This document shows, one piece after another, positions 1 to 7,045 of a stretch of 41,183 bases of DNA. This DNA comes from Planctomycetota bacterium (GTDB lineage: Bacteria > Planctomycetota > Phycisphaerae > Phycisphaerales > SM1A02). Positions within the stretch are counted from its first letter, which is position 1. Every line of letters starts with the position of its first letter. The DNA lies in NCBI GenBank assembly GCA_009926625.1, contig RFON01000024.1, positions 1-41,183 of the forward strand. Reading direction: 5' to 3'. Position numbers and translations under genes: made by a program. Under the pieces are notes generated by a model. That model was not told the DNA's origin. It did no database searches and worked only from the letters and a program-made list of their open reading frames with translations.

Positions 1-137
1 TGCGCGCCCGAGGCATCCCCTGCTGGGCGAGTTCTCGAGCCCGCGAACGCGGACCGCAGGTCCGTGGAGCGGGCGAGAGCTGTCTGAGCCCCAGCAGGGT
101 GCATGCCGAGGGCGCGCGCGGTAGAGGCGCTCTGCAG
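1..137 (+). repeat. Structured dispersed repeat, copy A (cut by window edge)
   Basis: Positions 1-99 are identical to 5590-5688. After a small indel (T at 100 against nine bases at 5689-5697) the match resumes at GCATGCCGAG. The core is a nested palindrome: outer arms CCTGCTGGG near 19-27 and CCCAGCAGG near 90-98, an inner GCCCGC/GCGGGC pair, and an apical CGGACC-GCA-GGTCCG hairpin. It lies directly 3' of the leftward gene ending at 151. It may extend left beyond the window. No protein is evident in it. Confidence 0.85.
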
Positions 138-150
138 GCGCGCGCGCGGT

Positions 151-1254
151 TCAGGGGTTTCGCGCTGCGCGGATTCCGACGATCGAACTTGGGAAAAGTG
201 TCAGATACCGCGCCGACGCGCGGCAGTTCGCTGCACCCATCAACCAGTTCCCGCCGCGCAGCACTCGAAACGATCCAGTCAATGGACCAGTCGGATCGAC
301 CTGCGCGTTTGGCTCATAGGTCCCCCACCAGTCGTTCACCCACTCGAACACATTGCCCGCCATGTCATGCAGGCCGAAGCCGTTGCCCGCCTTCAGGCCG
401 ACGCGCTTGGTCCCGTAGCTGGACGAACCGCTTGCACCGTTGTTGCCCGCGAACCAAGCGATCTCAGGCAGGCGCGCATCGTCGTCGGTGCCCGCGGGGA
501 AGTTCGCCGTGCCATGGAATGCGCTGCCAGTACCAGCGCGGAACGCGTATTCCCATTCTGCCTCGGTCGGCATGCGCATTCCCGTGATCTTGAAGAACGG
601 CATCGATGCGTCCCAGCCGATCTGTTCCACTGGTCGATCGGCGGCGTCGGGGTATGCGTCGCCCTGGAACGCACTCGGGTTGGAACCGATCACGGAAACC
701 CACTGCGCTTGCGTGACTTCGTAGCGCCCGAGGTAGAACGCATTGGTGAGCGTGACCGTGTGCCGCGGGTTTTCATCGCTATTGCATGCGCTCGCGAGTG
801 AGGCGCTGCAACCGCGCTGATAGGAGCCAGGCGGGATCAGCAGCATCTCGATGAGTGTTTGTGCGTCGCGCACGCGCCAGGCGAGTCCAGTGGCGATGAT
901 CTGCGAACGCAGGGCTGCATCAGGGACGACCGCGGGATCGGGAAGTGCCTCGATCAGCGTTGCCCAATCGGGCACCGTTGGTGCGCAGGGACCCCAGGCA
1001 GAGAGCAGAATGGTCAGGTCTGATCCGCCGACGATGCCATCGTTGTTGAGATCCGAGTTGAAGGTGCCTTGGCCGCTCGTGCCCCATGCCGAGAGCAGGA
1101 TCGTGAGATCGCTGCCGCCGACTTGCGCATTCTGGTCGATGTCCGCCGTGCACTGCGCGTGGGCTTCAGCGCAGGCGACGCCAAGCGCCAAGGCGAACTG
1201 TGCGGCGATGCCGACAGCACGGATGGAGGTGACGGACCGCGCAGAAGTTCGCAT
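151..1254 (-). CDS. Secreted SUMF1/FGE-sulfatase-fold protein with two N-terminal EF-hand-like repeats
   Basis: 367 aa. A signal peptide runs from MRTSARSV to about residue 34 (AHA-Q). Two dockerin/EF-hand-like repeats follow at about 35-90, each ending GGSDLTILLSAWG. The rest (about 130-367) is a SUMF1/formylglycine-generating-enzyme fold, shown by PPGSYQRG, YLGRYEVTQAQW, RMPTEAEWEYAFRAGT, GLHDMAGNVFEWVNDWW and FRVLRGGNW. The C-terminal stretch has one cysteine (NCRASAR) and not the cysteine pair of true FGE, so I infer a structural or binding role rather than formylglycine generation. I chose the ATG at 1254 because the signal peptide begins there; the frame is open further upstream (to 1347). 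A TATGTT box lies 9 nt before the start. The stop codon sits at the edge of repeat copy A. Confidence 0.85.
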   Translation of the reverse strand: MRTSARSVTSIRAVGIAAQFALALGVACAEAHAQCTADIDQNAQVGGSDLTILLSAWGTSGQGTFNSDLNNDGIVGGSDLTILLSAWGPCAPTVPDWATLIEALPDPAVVPDAALRSQIIATGLAWRVRDAQTLIEMLLIPPGSYQRGCSASLASACNSDENPRHTVTLTNAFYLGRYEVTQAQWVSVIGSNPSAFQGDAYPDAADRPVEQIGWDASMPFFKITGMRMPTEAEWEYAFRAGTGSAFHGTANFPAGTDDDARLPEIAWFAGNNGASGSSSYGTKRVGLKAGNGFGLHDMAGNVFEWVNDWWGTYEPNAQVDPTGPLTGSFRVLRGGNWLMGAANCRASARYLTLFPSSIVGIRAARNP

Positions 1255-1373
1255 GACTCGCCCAACATAGCGCGTAAGCGCCCCCTGCACAAACAGGTCC
1301 CGAGATTTGCGCCGTGTCGGGGGCGTCTGGGGCAACGCGTCGCCCATCGCTACTTCGTCCCTGCAAAAGCGCA

Positions 1374-1401
1374 GCGCGGGCGACCAGTCGGTCGCCCGCG
1401 C
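1374..1401 (-). terminator. Intrinsic terminator downstream of the lamin-tail gene
   Basis: A perfect 12-bp inverted repeat (1374-1385 with 1390-1401) closes a 4-nt loop AGTC. Read leftward, the stem is followed by TGCGCTTTTGC. It lies 36 nt past the stop of the leftward gene ending at 1438. The T-run is short, but the stem is long and GC-rich. Confidence 0.7.
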
Positions 1402-1437
1402 GCGAGTATCAAGTTGGGTGTTGATCGTGCGGAACGC

Positions 1438-2085
1438 TCAGCGGAAGCGTCGGCGCGAGGCAAGCCCAGCGAGTCCCAGCAGTGCGATCGCGCCAGGGGC
1501 AGGGATCGCGGTGCCGATTGATGCGGTGTCGCCGCTTCGCGAAGTGGTCACTTGCGAATCGATCGTGCCGACGGTGCTCACCACACCGTTGTACAGCGAG
1601 TTGATCGAACCGTCGGCGTTGTAGCCATAGAAGAAACTGCTGCCACTCGTTGCAGCGCCGAACGAGACCTGCGACACGATTGTTCCTGCGCTGTTGAAGA
1701 TCGATGCTCCGTCGCCACCTGAGCTCAGGCCAACGCCGCTTCCCGAGTAGTAGCCAACCTGCACGCCGCTGAGACCGCCCCAGAAGGTGCGGAAACTGCC
1801 GACAGCTGCGCCAGCGGCTGATTCGATGAACACCACGGACTCACCAGCTGCGATCGAGGAGATGCCGCTCAGCGCCACCGAAGCAGCGAAGTTGAACGAA
1901 CTGTCGTCCATCTTCCAGCCGGACAGGCTGACGGCCGTCGAGCCGAAGTTGGTGATTTCGATCCAGTCGACGGTTGGGGTTCCACCGCCGTTGCTCGAAC
2001 TCATGGCTTCGGTGATACGGATGTTGGCAGACGCGGACGCGGTCAACAACGCAACGAAACCAGCGGACAAAACGATGTTCTTCAA
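1438..2085 (-). CDS. Secreted lamin-tail-domain protein with PEP-CTERM-like sorting tail
   Basis: 215 aa. The start is taken as TTG at 2085 (MKNIVLSAGFVALL), which has GGAG six nt upstream; a TTG at 2097 would place the ribosome site inside the gene. A signal peptide ends near SASA-N. The body fits a lamin-tail domain: it opens IRITEAMSS and continues DWIEITNFGSTAVSLSGWKMDD with a beta-sandwich pattern. The C-terminus IPAPGAIALLGLAGLASRRR is a PEP-CTERM-like signal with PAP in place of PEP: short motif, hydrophobic helix, basic end. Such tails direct export and anchoring through an exosortase-type system in PEP-CTERM bacteria; no exosortase is in the window. A terminator follows at 1374-1401. 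Its substrate or ligand is unknown. Confidence 0.85.
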   Translation of the reverse strand: MKNIVLSAGFVALLTASASANIRITEAMSSSNGGGTPTVDWIEITNFGSTAVSLSGWKMDDSSFNFAASVALSGISSIAAGESVVFIESAAGAAVGSFRTFWGGLSGVQVGYYSGSGVGLSSGGDGASIFNSAGTIVSQVSFGAATSGSSFFYGYNADGSINSLYNGVVSTVGTIDSQVTTSRSGDTASIGTAIPAPGAIALLGLAGLASRRRFR

Positions 2086-2095
2086 GGGATGCTCC

Positions 2096-2142
2096 AAGAG
2101 GGGGGAGGGGGGAGAGAGAGGACGGAAAAACGGGAGGGGAAA
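2096..2142 (+). other. Polypurine tract in the leader of the lamin-tail gene
   Basis: Positions 2096-2122 are 27 uninterrupted purines with two G6 runs (2100-2105, 2107-2112). Purines then continue to 2142 with only two C interruptions. On the leftward transcript this is a C/U-rich leader just before the GGAG and TTG start. It could form a G-quadruplex or triplex, or act as a Rho or RNA-binding site; nothing here decides which. Confidence 0.5.
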
Positions 2143-2329
2143 CTGCTTGATTCAAGCCACGCGGCAATCGCCAAAGCGGCTTCCAAAAGGCGTACCGCGA
2201 CCCCCGTTCCGACTCTCCATCAACCACAGCATTGTGCCGCGATCCACCGCAAACGCAAGTGAAGAAAATGCGAAGATTTCGTTCAGGGTTCGGAACTGGG
2301 CACGGGCTGATACCTGCCTGTCGGGTGGA

Positions 2330-5272
2330 TCAGGAACCCCAGTTGGCAAGCATGGTGACCAAGTCAGCACCGTCCACGAGCCCGTTTCCATCGAGATCTG
2401 CGCCGCAGATCTGCTGACGAACATCGCAGGTGCCCCAAGCCGCCAACAGCACCACGAGATCGTTCCCATCCACGAGGCAGTCGGCCGTCACATCGCCAAG
2501 TCCATTGCACACTCGGTTGATCTGAACGACCGAGAGGGTGCCGCTGACCTCGTGCGAGGCAAGGAGGAGCGGGAAACCGTTTGGCGAATCTTCCGCACGG
2601 ATGAAGGCAAGCCCTTCCGTGCCCAGGTCGCCGGCGTTCCCAAGGAACGGCAACTGCGTGAAATCGCGGGAGTTGAGGTAGTCCTGGAACACGGGGGCGG
2701 TCGGGTCATCGACCGAATAGGCGATCACGCCGCCGACGCGCTCGAGGCACCCGAAGAAGTAGGTCTTCCCGTACGCGCTCCCAACGGTCACGCCCTCGGG
2801 CTCGGGCCCCTTCTGCCGACTGCGATTGTCGCGCGAGTTGTTGGTGTTGCTGCAGTTGAAGTTCGCGGGGAATCGCGCAGCAGTCAACTGTTCGAGTTGA
2901 TCGCCCGAATCCCAAACCTTGGCGGCCTGCGCATCCCAGATGGTGAAGCTGCGTGCGCCGTACGACACGAGGCGGTCATAGTCGCCGTCGCCATCGAGGT
3001 CGCCCAAATCCTTGCGGACCTGCAGGCGCCCCAGACGCGCGTTCGCCTTGAGCCAGGCTCGGCCTGGGAACACCTGCGGATCGAGCACCACCGTTGTCGT
3101 GCTGACTGGTGTTCCGTCGAAGAATGTGCCCCACTCGCGCGCATCGCCTTCGTTGGCGGTGACGAAGTAGTTCTGCCCACCCGCCGCAAAGCTCGCCACT
3201 GCGTCGGGCATGTAAGCGCCGAACACGGGCCAAGCGCGAATGAAGTTGCCGCCGTCCTGATCGGTGGGGTCGAGACCGTTGCCGGAGAAAGTCACCACGC
3301 CAAGCACGGTCGACGCGGGGTTCGGGTTGTTCGTCAGCAGTCCGGTCGCAGGGTTGAATGTGCCCTGCATCTGGAAGTCGTTGTCGTTGATGACGAAGAT
3401 GGTCGACGCATCGCGCATGGCAATGCCCTCGACCTTGTCACCCACGGCTGCATAGCCGACCGCGGCGAGATCGACGCGCACGCGCTTGCTGACAGGAACG
3501 ATTCCCGCAGCAACCAGTTGTGCGGCAGTCATCCGATCGAGCGTTCCACCTGGCCCAGCGACCGAACTTGGCAGCGTGGAGAGGTCAGTGGCACCAGCGA
3601 GGTCGATCTCGAAGATCTTCTTCTTGCTTGCGGGGCCGACGGCGCTGTCGCGCTCAACCACGAGGAATCGACCTGGACCCGACGCGCACGCATCGCCCAT
3701 CTTGTCGCTCGTGCCACCTTCAAGCACATAGAGGTACTCGGCGATCACGGACTCGGTCGCTGGATTGAACACCAGGATGCGCGTGTTCTGCGACGCCTTC
3801 GAGTTGGCATCGTTCGCCACATCAGGATTGTCGAGCGGGCTTTGCACGAAGCAATAGAGGAGGTCGTTCCAGACCGCGATCGCCTCGAAGCCGCGGTTGT
3901 CGCGCCGCTGCGCATACACCGCAGGCAACGCCTCCGTGCCGAGAACGCTGCCGTACGAATTCGCGCCGAACGGCACATAGCGCGCCAGCATCAGTCCATC
4001 GGCGGCAAATCGGTAAATCGACGGGCGGTACTCGTCGCACATCCACATCGAACCGTCGCTCGTTCGCACAATGCCTTCGAGGTCAGCACCGATCGGATCA
4101 AACGCCAGCGGCTGGCCGAAGAGGTCGCACGGTTGTTCATCCGTGTTCGCCAAGCCAGGTGACTGCCCGAAGACATTGGGCAACCCAGTCATCGGGGATC
4201 CATCGGGCTTGCGCAGCAGCGTCTGGCCGACCAGCGACAGTTCGTTGGTTGCAGGGTTGTATGTCAGCGTGCACACGCGCGGCTGGAACGCTGGCAGCGG
4301 GAACGGGCGCTCCAGCGCAGCATCGCCATCGACATTCACTGGCTCGCAGTTCGGACCGCGATCAGGGTTCGCAAGGAAAGTGATGACGCCTGTCGCGGGA
4401 TCGATCGAGTCAAACCACAGACCGCTGAAACCACCAAGCAGGATGTCCTGTCCCGCCGCCGTCGTGCCAAGCAGCGGCGGATTCTGCAGCGCCGCCGTGA
4501 CGAGCCCTGCAACCCCCGACGCATGATCCTTCAGCCCGAGCGGTCGCACCGCGGCAATGCGCGGCACCGTCAGATCGACAAGCGCCACCGCGCTGTGCTC
4601 CTGCAGCGTCACCACGACCGACTGCGAATCCGCCGACACCGCTGCATACTCTGGCTCGAGATCCTGCCCGATCGATGGCGCATTCACGCCGAACGGACGG
4701 ATCGACGGATCGATCGTCCCCGCAGGCAACCCATCGAAGCTGAGCGTGACCACATCTGACTGATCGATCGTGCTGCCACTGACATCGATGATCGAGATCG
4801 AACCAACGGGATCAATCTCGTAGTTCGCATCGGGTTCGCCCTCGTTGCACACGATCAGCCGCGTCCCATCTGGCGTGAAACACACATGATCCGGCAGCGC
4901 GCCAACGGTCACCGCACTGCTGACAACACCCGTTGCATCCATGAACACAACGGTGCCTGGATCGGTCTTCGGCGTCGCCTCCACCGCAAGGGCAATGAGG
5001 CCATCGCGTGCAGCCACGCTCTGCAGTCCCCCACCGTACGGAATGAGCGACACCGTTCCCACGCGCACTGGCGCGGTCGGCACGGAGATGTCAACGATGT
5101 CGACCGCATTGGCGAGCGCGTTCACCACGAACGCACGGCCCGACGCGCGATCGAACGCAACGATCTCAGCGCCGGCAACGTCGTAGCCGGATGAACTCGT
5201 CCGTCCGAGGAACTCAAAGGCGATGTCGGGACCTGCGGTGGCGGCGGCGAGAACGGCGGCGACAATGATCAT
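2330..5272 (-). CDS. Large secreted choice-of-anchor I protein with inserted phytase-like esterase domain and C-terminal dockerin-like repeats
   Basis: 980 aa from ATG at 5272 (MIIVAAVLAAATAG, a short export signal). Residues about 15-250 and 560-915 look like the two halves of a choice-of-anchor I beta-propeller-like domain: CNEGEPDANYEIDP and SIIDVS in the first; RLGRLQVRKDLGDLDGDGDYD and EPEGVTVG in the second. Between them lies an 'esterase-like activity of phytase' region with GFSGLWFDSIDPATG, DLEGIVRTSDGSMWMCDEY and NRGFEAIAVW. The last 60 residues form two EF-like repeats (LVDGNDLVVLLAAWG, LVDGADLVTMLANWG) of the kind seen in the neighbouring genes. The frame stays open upstream to 5722, but that part reads through palindromic repeats and is not taken as protein. 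Phosphate-ester hydrolysis is possible but only inferred. Confidence 0.85.
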   Translation of the reverse strand: MIIVAAVLAAATAGPDIAFEFLGRTSSSGYDVAGAEIVAFDRASGRAFVVNALANAVDIVDISVPTAPVRVGTVSLIPYGGGLQSVAARDGLIALAVEATPKTDPGTVVFMDATGVVSSAVTVGALPDHVCFTPDGTRLIVCNEGEPDANYEIDPVGSISIIDVSGSTIDQSDVVTLSFDGLPAGTIDPSIRPFGVNAPSIGQDLEPEYAAVSADSQSVVVTLQEHSAVALVDLTVPRIAAVRPLGLKDHASGVAGLVTAALQNPPLLGTTAAGQDILLGGFSGLWFDSIDPATGVITFLANPDRGPNCEPVNVDGDAALERPFPLPAFQPRVCTLTYNPATNELSLVGQTLLRKPDGSPMTGLPNVFGQSPGLANTDEQPCDLFGQPLAFDPIGADLEGIVRTSDGSMWMCDEYRPSIYRFAADGLMLARYVPFGANSYGSVLGTEALPAVYAQRRDNRGFEAIAVWNDLLYCFVQSPLDNPDVANDANSKASQNTRILVFNPATESVIAEYLYVLEGGTSDKMGDACASGPGRFLVVERDSAVGPASKKKIFEIDLAGATDLSTLPSSVAGPGGTLDRMTAAQLVAAGIVPVSKRVRVDLAAVGYAAVGDKVEGIAMRDASTIFVINDNDFQMQGTFNPATGLLTNNPNPASTVLGVVTFSGNGLDPTDQDGGNFIRAWPVFGAYMPDAVASFAAGGQNYFVTANEGDAREWGTFFDGTPVSTTTVVLDPQVFPGRAWLKANARLGRLQVRKDLGDLDGDGDYDRLVSYGARSFTIWDAQAAKVWDSGDQLEQLTAARFPANFNCSNTNNSRDNRSRQKGPEPEGVTVGSAYGKTYFFGCLERVGGVIAYSVDDPTAPVFQDYLNSRDFTQLPFLGNAGDLGTEGLAFIRAEDSPNGFPLLLASHEVSGTLSVVQINRVCNGLGDVTADCLVDGNDLVVLLAAWGTCDVRQQICGADLDGNGLVDGADLVTMLANWGS

Positions 5273-5303
5273 GGTCGGAACGGTCTCACCAAATCGTGAA
5301 TGA

Positions 5304-5322
5304 TTTGCATATGTCGTGCAAA
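5304..5322. promoter_or_regulatory. Inverted repeat TTTGCA-N7-TGCAAA upstream of the 980-aa gene
   Basis: A perfect 6-bp palindrome with a 7-nt spacer lies 32-50 nt before the ATG at 5272, in an AT-richer patch of an otherwise GC-rich region. The leftward strand also offers TTGCAC as a possible -35 overlapping it, but I see no convincing -10. It may be an operator; no regulator is identified. Confidence 0.3.
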
Positions 5323-5364
5323 GGAAATGTTGCCTACGGCGATTTCGCATCGTGAACGCATCCG

Positions 5365-5448
5365 AATGGATGCCACGCATCCATTCCCACGCCAATTGGG
5401 CTGCGGAATGGATGCCGCGCATCCATTCCCACGCCAATGGGGCTGCGG
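5365..5448 (+). repeat. Two tandem 42-bp units, each a strong hairpin
   Basis: Units 5365-5406 and 5407-5448 differ at only two positions. Each contains AATGGATGC, three bases, then GCATCCATT: a 9-bp perfect stem, lengthened to 10 bp in the first unit and 11 bp in the second by flanking bases. Each unit ends with CCCACGCCAAT and GGCTGCGG. There is no T-run, so these are not ordinary intrinsic terminators. They resemble REP-type elements in size and tandem arrangement, not a CRISPR. Confidence 0.85.
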
Positions 5449-5452
5449 CATA

Positions 5453-5534
5453 GCCGTGCTGGGGCTCAGACAGTCTCGCCTGCTCCACGCGGCTGGGCGT
5501 TCGCAGGCTCAACAACTCGCCCAGCACAGGCATG
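5453..5534 (-). repeat. Structured dispersed repeat, copy B (inverted and diverged)
   Basis: The reverse complement of this stretch aligns with copies A and C over the whole core: TGCTGGGCGAGTT, then TGAGCCTGCGAACGC, CGTGGAGCAGGCGAGA and CTGTCTGAGCCCCAGCA. Two stem positions change on both sides and keep pairing: outer C-G becomes G-C (GTGCTGGG/CCCAGCAC), and inner GCCCGC/GCGGGC becomes GCCTGC/GCAGGC. The apical hairpin is shorter. Together with copy C it forms an inverted pair about 60 bp apart. Confidence 0.75.
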
Positions 5535-5589
5535 CCGCAGCCCACCCGCGGGGCGCGTTTCGGCTCGCTCGATGTTGTGCGTTCGTCCG

Positions 5590-5740
5590 TGCGCGCCCGA
5601 GGCATCCCCTGCTGGGCGAGTTCTCGAGCCCGCGAACGCGGACCGCAGGTCCGTGGAGCGGGCGAGAGCTGTCTGAGCCCCAGCAGGGCAGCAGGGCGCA
5701 TGCCGAGGGCGCGCGCGGTCAACGCGCTCTGCAGGCGCGT
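5590..5740 (+). repeat. Structured dispersed repeat, copy C
   Basis: The first 99 bases equal positions 1-99. CAGCAGGG is then duplicated (5681-5688, 5689-5696), and the match to copy A resumes at GCATGCCGAG (5698). A further hairpin, AACGCGC-7-GCGCGTT (5721-5741), reaches into the stop codon of the E2 gene, so on the leftward transcript a stem begins at the stop codon. With the tandem hairpins and copy B it accounts for most of the 468-bp gene-free stretch 5273-5740. It may serve as a 3' stability or termination element for pdhC. Confidence 0.85.
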
Positions 5741-7045
5741 TCAGACGAGCAGCGTGGCTGGGTTCTCGAGATTGTGCTTGACGGTCTGCAGGTACTCCGC
5801 CGCCATCGCGCCGTCGATCACTCGGTGATCGAGGCTGAGGGTTGCCTGCATTTCGTGCCCGACCACGAGTTGGTGGTTCCGCACCACGGGCTGCTCGACT
5901 GCCGCGCCGCACGCGAGGATCGCGCTGTTGGGCGGGTTGATGATGGCGGTGAAGTTGTCCACGCCGAACATGCCGAGGTTGCTGATGGTGAAGGTGGCGC
6001 CCGACATGTCTTCTGGCCCGAGCCCGCGCGTTCGCGCCTTCTCAGCCAGTGCGCGCGTTTCCGTGGAGATGTCGCGCAGTCCCTTGCGATTCGCGTGCTG
6101 CAGCACTGCGACGACGAGTCCGCCGCCGCGCTCGGCGGGGAGGCTGACCGCGACGCCGACATTCACATCGCCGTGGAGGATGATCCGATCGCCGGCCCAT
6201 GATGCGTTGAAGAATGGGTGCGCGGCCATCGCGAGCGCGCAGGCGCGGACGATGAAGTCGTTCACGCTCAGCTTCACGCCTTGCGGTTCGAGCTGTGCGT
6301 TCAGCATCGTGCGCAGTTCAAGCAGCGGGTCCATGTTGACGCGCATCGCGACTTGGTAGTGCGGGATGGTGGACTTGCTTTCGACGAGTCGGCGCGCGAT
6401 CGCCTGGCGCATGCCGCTGACGGTGACTTCGCTGCTGCCGGCACCGAGTGGCGCGTGGTACGCGAGTGCGGTTTCTGCGGGGAGCGGTCGCGTTTCGAGC
6501 ACGGCGGGAGCAGGCGCGGAGGGTTGGCGGTTCGCCGCCGCGAGAATGTCCTGTTTGACGATGCGACCGCCGGGTCCGCTGCCGCGGATTGCGTCGAGCG
6601 AGACGCCGAGTTCCTCCGCCATGCGGCGAGCGAGCGGAGAAACGCGCACGCGCGCGGATGGGCTGTCGGCTGCGCGCGTTGGATGTGGCGCATGTGGCAC
6701 GGGTTGCGCGTGTGGCGCGGACTGACCGTTCGATGCCGCGGCGGGTGCTGCGGGTGTCTGCGCAGCCGCGGGGCTCGATGCAACTGCAACCGCTTGCCCG
6801 TCGTCGCCGTCGACGGCGATGATGGCGATGGGCGTTCCAACGGGGACCTGCTGTCCAGCGGCAACCATGATCTTGCTGATGACGCCGTCGTCATAGACGG
6901 GCATCTCCATCGTTGCCTTGTCCGTTTCGACATCGGCAACCACATCGCCCGATGCAACGCTGTCGCCTTCCTTCACATTCCAACGCACGATCGTTCCCGA
7001 CTGCATCGTGTCGGACAGGCGTGGCATCGTGATCTGGACTGGCAT
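5741..7045 (-). CDS. pdhC: Pyruvate dehydrogenase E2, dihydrolipoamide acetyltransferase
   Basis: 434 aa. It transfers the acetyl group from the lipoyl arm to CoA and forms the core of the cytoplasmic 2-oxoacid dehydrogenase complex. A single N-terminal lipoyl domain (1-78) has the lipoylated lysine in ETDKAT (K43). An Ala/Pro-rich linker follows. The peripheral subunit-binding domain is at about 132-170 (RVSPLARRMAEELGV, GSGPGGRIVKQDI). A second linker leads to the catalytic domain, with SLDHRVIDGA near the C-terminus (H407, D411). It is last in the operon, 9 nt after pdhB. The pdhA/pdhB neighbours suggest pyruvate as substrate; a branched-chain complex is the main alternative. The repeat immediately 3' may end or stabilise the message. 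Confidence 0.93.
   Translation of the reverse strand: MPVQITMPRLSDTMQSGTIVRWNVKEGDSVASGDVVADVETDKATMEMPVYDDGVISKIMVAAGQQVPVGTPIAIIAVDGDDGQAVAVASSPAAAQTPAAPAAASNGQSAPHAQPVPHAPHPTRAADSPSARVRVSPLARRMAEELGVSLDAIRGSGPGGRIVKQDILAAANRQPSAPAPAVLETRPLPAETALAYHAPLGAGSSEVTVSGMRQAIARRLVESKSTIPHYQVAMRVNMDPLLELRTMLNAQLEPQGVKLSVNDFIVRACALAMAAHPFFNASWAGDRIILHGDVNVGVAVSLPAERGGGLVVAVLQHANRKGLRDISTETRALAEKARTRGLGPEDMSGATFTISNLGMFGVDNFTAIINPPNSAILACGAAVEQPVVRNHQLVVGHEMQATLSLDHRVIDGAMAAEYLQTVKHNLENPATLLV

Follow-up and report, generated by a model that had tools for sequence, protein, structure and literature searches.

The Rickettsia palindromic elements (RPEs) are hairpin repeats of 105-146 bp which, in the portions of their descriptions that were accessible, occur both in intergenic DNA and in frame within protein genes (PMC2229807, PMC10969869). 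The same portions present bacterial miniature inverted-repeat transposable elements (MITEs), such as ERIC, Correia, RUP and CIR, as small and non-autonomous, mostly with terminal inverted repeats, and some of them form in-frame fusions (PMC2229807, PMC10969869). Repetitive extragenic palindromes (REPs) of the GTAG and CGTC super-families are, in the accessible part of their source, 20-40 bp palindromes that are widespread in prokaryotes, mostly intergenic near gene 3' ends and sometimes intragenic; the super-families have a short tag in common at one end, and the CGTC REPs are without a dedicated transposase (PMC3733652). Here, we analysed a 41,183-nt stretch of DNA from a Planctomycetota bacterium (contig RFON01000024.1, genome label G000), hereafter the window, which holds three copies of a longer palindrome. 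We consider it probable that this palindrome is a non-autonomous, dispersed and structured mobile element, patchily distributed across several phyla.

An earlier note, made from the letters of the window, had described a structured repeat in three copies there. All three were recovered, each of them as a single long hairpin when folded. The copies and their conserved cores are:

1..138, plus strand: copy A1 of the palindromic element, truncated at the contig start; right end inferred
27..89, plus strand: conserved core of copy A1, GCGAGTT...TGTCTGAGC
5416..5567, minus strand: copy D (copy B of the earlier note), with outer arms unlike those of the A copies
5464..5520, minus strand: conserved core of copy D, in which the inner hairpin is shorter
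5567..5736, plus strand: copy A2, which faces copy D head to head and contains a tandem duplication of 8 nt; right end inferred
5616..5678, plus strand: conserved core of copy A2

Over 99 nt, copy A1 does not differ from copy A2, and the tandem duplication in A2 (copy at 5590) is CAGCAGGG. The fold z-score is -5.45 for 5590-5740 on the plus strand and -2.24 for the reverse strand, and it is -6.60 for 5440-5560 on the minus strand; together with the further matches in the genome given below, these values speak for more than chance. Two paired changes had been reported in copy D, an outer C-G to G-C and an inner C-G to T-A, and both are present. The inner pair is T-A in 12 of the 13 aligned copies of this genome, which makes the exceptions those at 1 and 5590 and not copy D.

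The element is about 110-200 bp long, and units of 113 nt and longer align end to end. Its outer arms, of about 15-45 bp, pair with each other and so form terminal inverted repeats. Between the variable arms lies a nearly fixed centre, GCGAGTT-NNNN-AG ... TGTYTGAGC, which encloses a variable inner hairpin of a few bases to about 60. Going inward from the arms, the centre is made of two GC pairs, an internal loop in which GA faces TGTYTGA, a short helix with a bulged U, and a second internal loop. A helix between the two bases after GCGAGTT and their complement after CGA (XY/Y'X') holds in 157 of 192 distinct cores, as CC/GG (138), CT/AG (9), GC/GC (6) or AC/GT (4).

Pairing is maintained while the sequence changes. 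The planctomycete alignment (19 rows) has 91.1% of its cells paired, compared with 27-46% in slid controls, and double changes occur at 8 pairs in 32 cells; four of five measures lie above nearly all of 500 shuffles. We collected 59 distinct Adlercreutzia-type copies of 113-115 nt, and the alignment of the 47 distinct copies of 113 nt is 97.7% paired, with double changes in 25 of 39 pairs (320 cells) and one-sided changes in 29 cells. When the partner was slid by 1-3 columns, 35-44% of the cells were paired and at most 52 carried double changes, and none of 500 shuffles reached any of the five measures, although these slid and shuffled controls favour the structure, which was derived from the very rows tested, themselves related to one another. 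Two trmD copies (L195 and L261) have nine aligned differences, eight of which make up four exchanged pairs; these exchanges could come from recombination that replaced whole copies. The further covariation expected by the earlier note is thus seen in both alignments, and its inference of a maintained folding is supported.

The element extends well beyond the window. A search with window 5605-5695 gave 17 matches in the 2.58-Mb, 105-contig genome, one of which is a 33-nt fragment; 17 is a floor because several matches lie at contig ends. The outer arms in this genome fall, by our own sorting, into four types, each with its matching partner arm, and the centre is common to them. In our first covariance model, R1, the outer stem was poor; the model matched 8 of 301 genomes of the order, all of one family. 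A second model, R2, matched more genomes: 24 of the 181 genomes of the family at E ≤ 0.01, comprising 15 of 19 in the genus of the window, 7 in genus g14, 1 in g17 and 1 in g3, the last being weak (E 0.0095). Copy numbers from R2 are floors, because about 21 candidates were scored per genome.

To reach other phyla, the pattern GCGAGTT-N4-AG ... CGA-N(2-5)-TGTYTGAGC was searched in genome_contigs, where at least 118 stretches match. Among the matches listed are Coriobacteriia (Adlercreutzia, Enterorhabdus, Senegalimassilia, Collinsella and Olsenella), Lachnospiraceae, Myxococcales including Plesiocystis, Omnitrophota, Krumholzibacteriota, Vicinamibacteraceae (Acidobacteriota), Chloroflexi, Gemmatimonadetes, other Planctomycetota and some others. 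A few, those in Mycolicibacterium (L173), Gallionella (L219) and Corynebacterium (L252), have unconvincing arms or are a poor fit, and look like chance. In 28 genomes, chosen because each already had a pattern match, the exact pattern occurred 1-30 times each, and its reversed control did not occur in any of the 28; Adlercreutzia-group genomes had 17-30 exact matches in six cases and 2 in another. The distribution is patchy: the exact pattern, which is stricter than the covariance models and whose gap range misses the longer g14 copies, was found in 2 of the 392 Planctomycetota genomes that were sampled and in 40 of 296 from Coriobacteriia. The expectation of more copies was therefore borne out, by the model search in relatives that the earlier note had suggested and across phyla; the two outcomes set against it there, a lack of further copies and stem changes on one side only, were not what we found. 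Two stretches titled Betaproteobacteria (L188) and Planctomycetota (L204) carry the same element with the same near flanks in metagenome-assembled genomes of one sampling series, and their conflicting phylum labels are probably due to misbinning. A weaker sister form (GCGAGTTTGCAAG ... GCAGCATGTTTGAGC) was seen in genome G090 (L110 16236-16332 and L113 10103-10202), inverted and about 170-190 bp from strong copies.

The earlier note had recognised no named family, and no copy has an Rfam match at the gathering score. At that score the window gave only a bacterial small signal recognition particle RNA (RF00169, 28669-28765, minus strand, 52.1 bits), and 18 copy-bearing stretches (143 kb) gave no match. 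A below-threshold match over one copy, to snaR-A, scored 20.6 bits, where the cut-off is 98. No description of the element was found among the best-ranked matches of the literature searched.

Some copies lie in frame inside genes. In one genus group, 8 of 9 genomes carry the element between two landmarks of TrmD, where the interval is 82-113 amino acids, compared with 34 in the ninth. The copies in these intervals are full, double or half. In L262 and L263 the 3' motif is degenerate, and in G370 a TAG is listed inside the longer match, yet the interval itself is open. Altogether 15 copies were called inside genes, 13 of them in sense, with some of the host genes being doubtful calls. Six of seven scanned in-frame hosts have Pfam matches, of the types ABC transporter, RrnaAD (rsmA type), TrmD, radical-SAM/DUF512, Fe-S and GHMP kinase. 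The in-frame hosts include an ABC-F-type gene, and a DUF512-type gene has a copy in four loci. A RASSAA...SEDCLSE-like peptide is common to the TrmD, RrnaAD-family, ABC and DUF512 proteins. The corresponding frame, ASS, is open in 99 of 225 elements against 75.5 expected, a weak excess; the other motif-strand frames are open in 35 and 57 (78.0 and 74.5 expected), and the reverse frames in 121, 120 and 117 (104-107 expected).

These properties can be set against the systems introduced above. As a palindrome of about 100-150 bp in many copies, with in-frame insertions that share a peptide, the element resembles the RPEs; however, RPEs are described from Rickettsia in the accessible parts of the sources, and the present element occurs in several phyla and has a near-fixed, asymmetric centre. 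It is like the GTAG and CGTC REPs, as far as the accessible part of their source goes, in being palindromic, near gene 3' ends and sometimes intragenic, and CGTC REPs too are without a dedicated transposase. In contrast to REPs, the unit has 110-200 bp, its common part is central and two-stranded, and it does not track with a Y1 transposase. With the MITEs it shares its small size, its lack of autonomy and outer arms that pair as terminal inverted repeats, but pairing covers most of its length and neither a cognate transposase nor a target-site duplication has been established for it. We would therefore treat it as a putative new type of dispersed palindromic element, likened to the RPEs by description only and not filed among them.

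Mobility is suggested by the distribution and by presence and absence at corresponding sites. Copies would spread within genomes and horizontally by an activity supplied in trans, which would recognise the folded centre. The arms and the inner hairpin would then be free to drift only while their pairing is kept, and copies in frame may be tolerated because the motif-strand frame (ASSA...EDCLSE) can be open.

Several observations weigh against this reading. No transposition event was observed, and the junctions compared between G000 and a second genome, G051, show no clear target-site duplication; in G051 the A copy beside copy D is absent, which may be due to deletion or recombination. None of three candidate partner genes follows the element. 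Y1 transposases occur in 0 of 19 genomes of the genus and 12 of 21 other element genomes. Reverse transcriptases were present in 13 of 30 genomes with the element and in 1 of 10 regarded as lacking it; for IS110 transposases the counts were 11 of 30 and 6 of 10. Of these ten genomes, four had no R2 match and six were classed by the exact pattern alone, which they lack. As their presence does not follow the element, Y1/RAYT, reverse transcriptase and IS110 were rejected as partners. The few searches of plasmid, phage and viral sequences revealed no carrier, the window's own type not being sought there: one strict pattern had no match in viral_contigs, and one Adlercreutzia copy had none in plasmids. 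The XY/Y'X' rule fails in 19 of the 192 cores, about 17 of them from the window's own genus, in which this helix pairs in another register; 16 further cores were unparsed. The count of further pair types in the planctomycete alignment is not above shuffles (493 of 500 reached it). Finally, an orientation bias towards neighbouring genes and terminator-like inner hairpins in at least three Coriobacteriia copies, both given below, could mean a function for the host.

A partner linked in cis was not supported by an all-against-all comparison of 1177 called proteins: among clusters found in at least three groups, ABC ATPases and response regulators formed the largest. Near copies there are some clusters of 3-4 proteins, for example ClpB-like and SPFH-like ones in our reading. 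A circularly permuted centre closed by a CCCC-GCA-GGGG hairpin was seen in viral contig L259 (9041-9080, minus strand), its sole match in viral_contigs; this form had no match in phages or in 259 loci and six weak ones in plasmids (E about 6).

The main rival is that the element is a functional cis-acting RNA, involved in 3'-end processing, termination or mRNA stability and kept near gene ends for the host. The neighbours of the element bear on this. In the window they are:

151..1254, minus strand: FGE-sulfatase domain protein (PF03781), its stop codon toward copy A1
5741..7045, minus strand: 2-oxoacid dehydrogenase acyltransferase (PF00198), its stop codon toward copy A2
5364..5447, no strand assigned: 42-nt tandem repeat in two copies, with a small palindrome, which adjoins and overlaps an arm of copy D

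The tandem repeat need not be related to the palindromic element. Over 118 listed stretches with 129 elements, using genes from a home-made caller that was checked on the window and leaving out of the neighbour count the genes called over an element (15 elements), the gene on the 3' side of the motif is antisense in 80 cases, 60 of them within 100 nt, sense in 42 and absent in 7. On the 5' side it is antisense in 58, sense in 52 and absent in 19, which speaks against a cis-acting RNA. Convergent genes often carry one copy each, which explains many of the inverted pairs. The earlier note had predicted copies near gene ends, and this is often so, but copies also lie in frame within coding sequences, between divergent genes and before start codons, and many are solitary. 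Same-strand neighbours were inspected by eye, with no obvious split gene. Three single-copy Coriobacteriia forms (G914, G946 and G1026) have an inner hairpin made of an A-run, a GC stem and a T-run, as in a two-way intrinsic terminator. A terminator as the whole explanation was ruled out by the copies between divergent genes and within genes.

The strand signal also favours an RNA in part. Among Adlercreutzia-type copies, the per-column count on the motif strand is 30 G.U to 8 A.C, leaving out pair 16-99, a fixed G.U, and pair 2-113, a frayed end, and the arms of 11 of twelve 115-nt copies give 9 to 3. Looser counts are near even, with 110 G.T to 128 A.C in named stretches and 104 to 92 in the planctomycetes. 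Clean-flank counts for the arms are 44 to 8, a figure raised by a single fixed G.U position, and 15 to 8; those for the inner hairpins are mixed, 4 to 6 and 24 to 13. All these counts come from related copies and are not independent. We favour the motif strand as the RNA strand with modest confidence; of the two forms named by the earlier note, RNA and cruciform, either may apply. This RNA-like strand is antisense to most 3' neighbours, and no copy was seen in 4 of the 19 genomes of the genus, both of which argue against a cis-acting RNA; we regard that explanation as unlikely. There is a bolder form of the mobile-element reading, which we advance only tentatively: the centre may be an unrecognised RNA motif, folded on the motif strand and either bound by a conserved protein or itself catalytic, that drives RNA-mediated spread, making the element a bacterial counterpart of short interspersed nuclear elements that colonises several phyla and rides in kept genes, including trmD.

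The palindrome could also be maintained without any recognition, if one arm is rewritten from the other by template switching at hairpins and what we see are relics. The arms are nearly perfect, and the excess of double over one-sided changes (320 to 29 cells) is what such a process would leave; it could have produced some of the paired changes, to which selection, named by the earlier note, is not the sole route. However, template switching should erase the G.U pair at columns 16-99, which is kept in 43 of 47 Adlercreutzia-type copies while adjacent pairs vary, and it would not hold the centre near-identical across phyla. As the whole account it seems improbable to us.

Integron attC sites are hairpins that pair imperfectly, carry bulges and vary in their terminal part. 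The present element is likewise a bulged hairpin with a variable tip, and accessory genes lie between some copies, but its arm ends vary between copies. Its copies might be sites of gene-cassette exchange, with head-to-head pairs bracketing exchangeable cargo. One D/A pair does bracket different genes in two species (L099 5750-8530 and L129 5667-8178). In G000 (C27) it encloses an EcoRI-type methylase and a GmrSD/HNH protein; in G051 (C39) it encloses a C5 methylase and a 223-residue protein that matches nothing in Pfam or PADLOC, and there the cargo is flanked by direct repeats of at least 29 bp. This is a single locus, and many copies stand alone. Ordinary recombination between repeats, or an insertion with a long target duplication, gives the same result, and the repeats may simply provide homology for cargo exchange. 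We hold cassette exchange to be very unlikely. Mobilisation as REPs by a RAYT (Y1) transposase would fit intergenic palindromes, inverted pairs between convergent genes and the intragenic REPs noted in the accessible part of PMC3733652, but it is hardly credible for an element several times longer than 20-40 bp, with Y1 in none of the 19 genus genomes and missing from 9 of 21 other element genomes.

Whereas the REP super-families have no more than a short tag in common (PMC3733652), in this element about 20-30 bases over two strands are near-fixed from Coriobacteriia to Planctomycetota and Omnitrophota, with in-frame copies in trmD and an rsmA-type gene, which suggests one recognition system in distant bacteria. 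The permuted centre, if it proves common, would argue for a self-standing three-dimensional motif. Genomes with many copies are a natural test bed for compensatory evolution, and the patchiness of the distribution should make the mobiliser findable through gene presence and absence.

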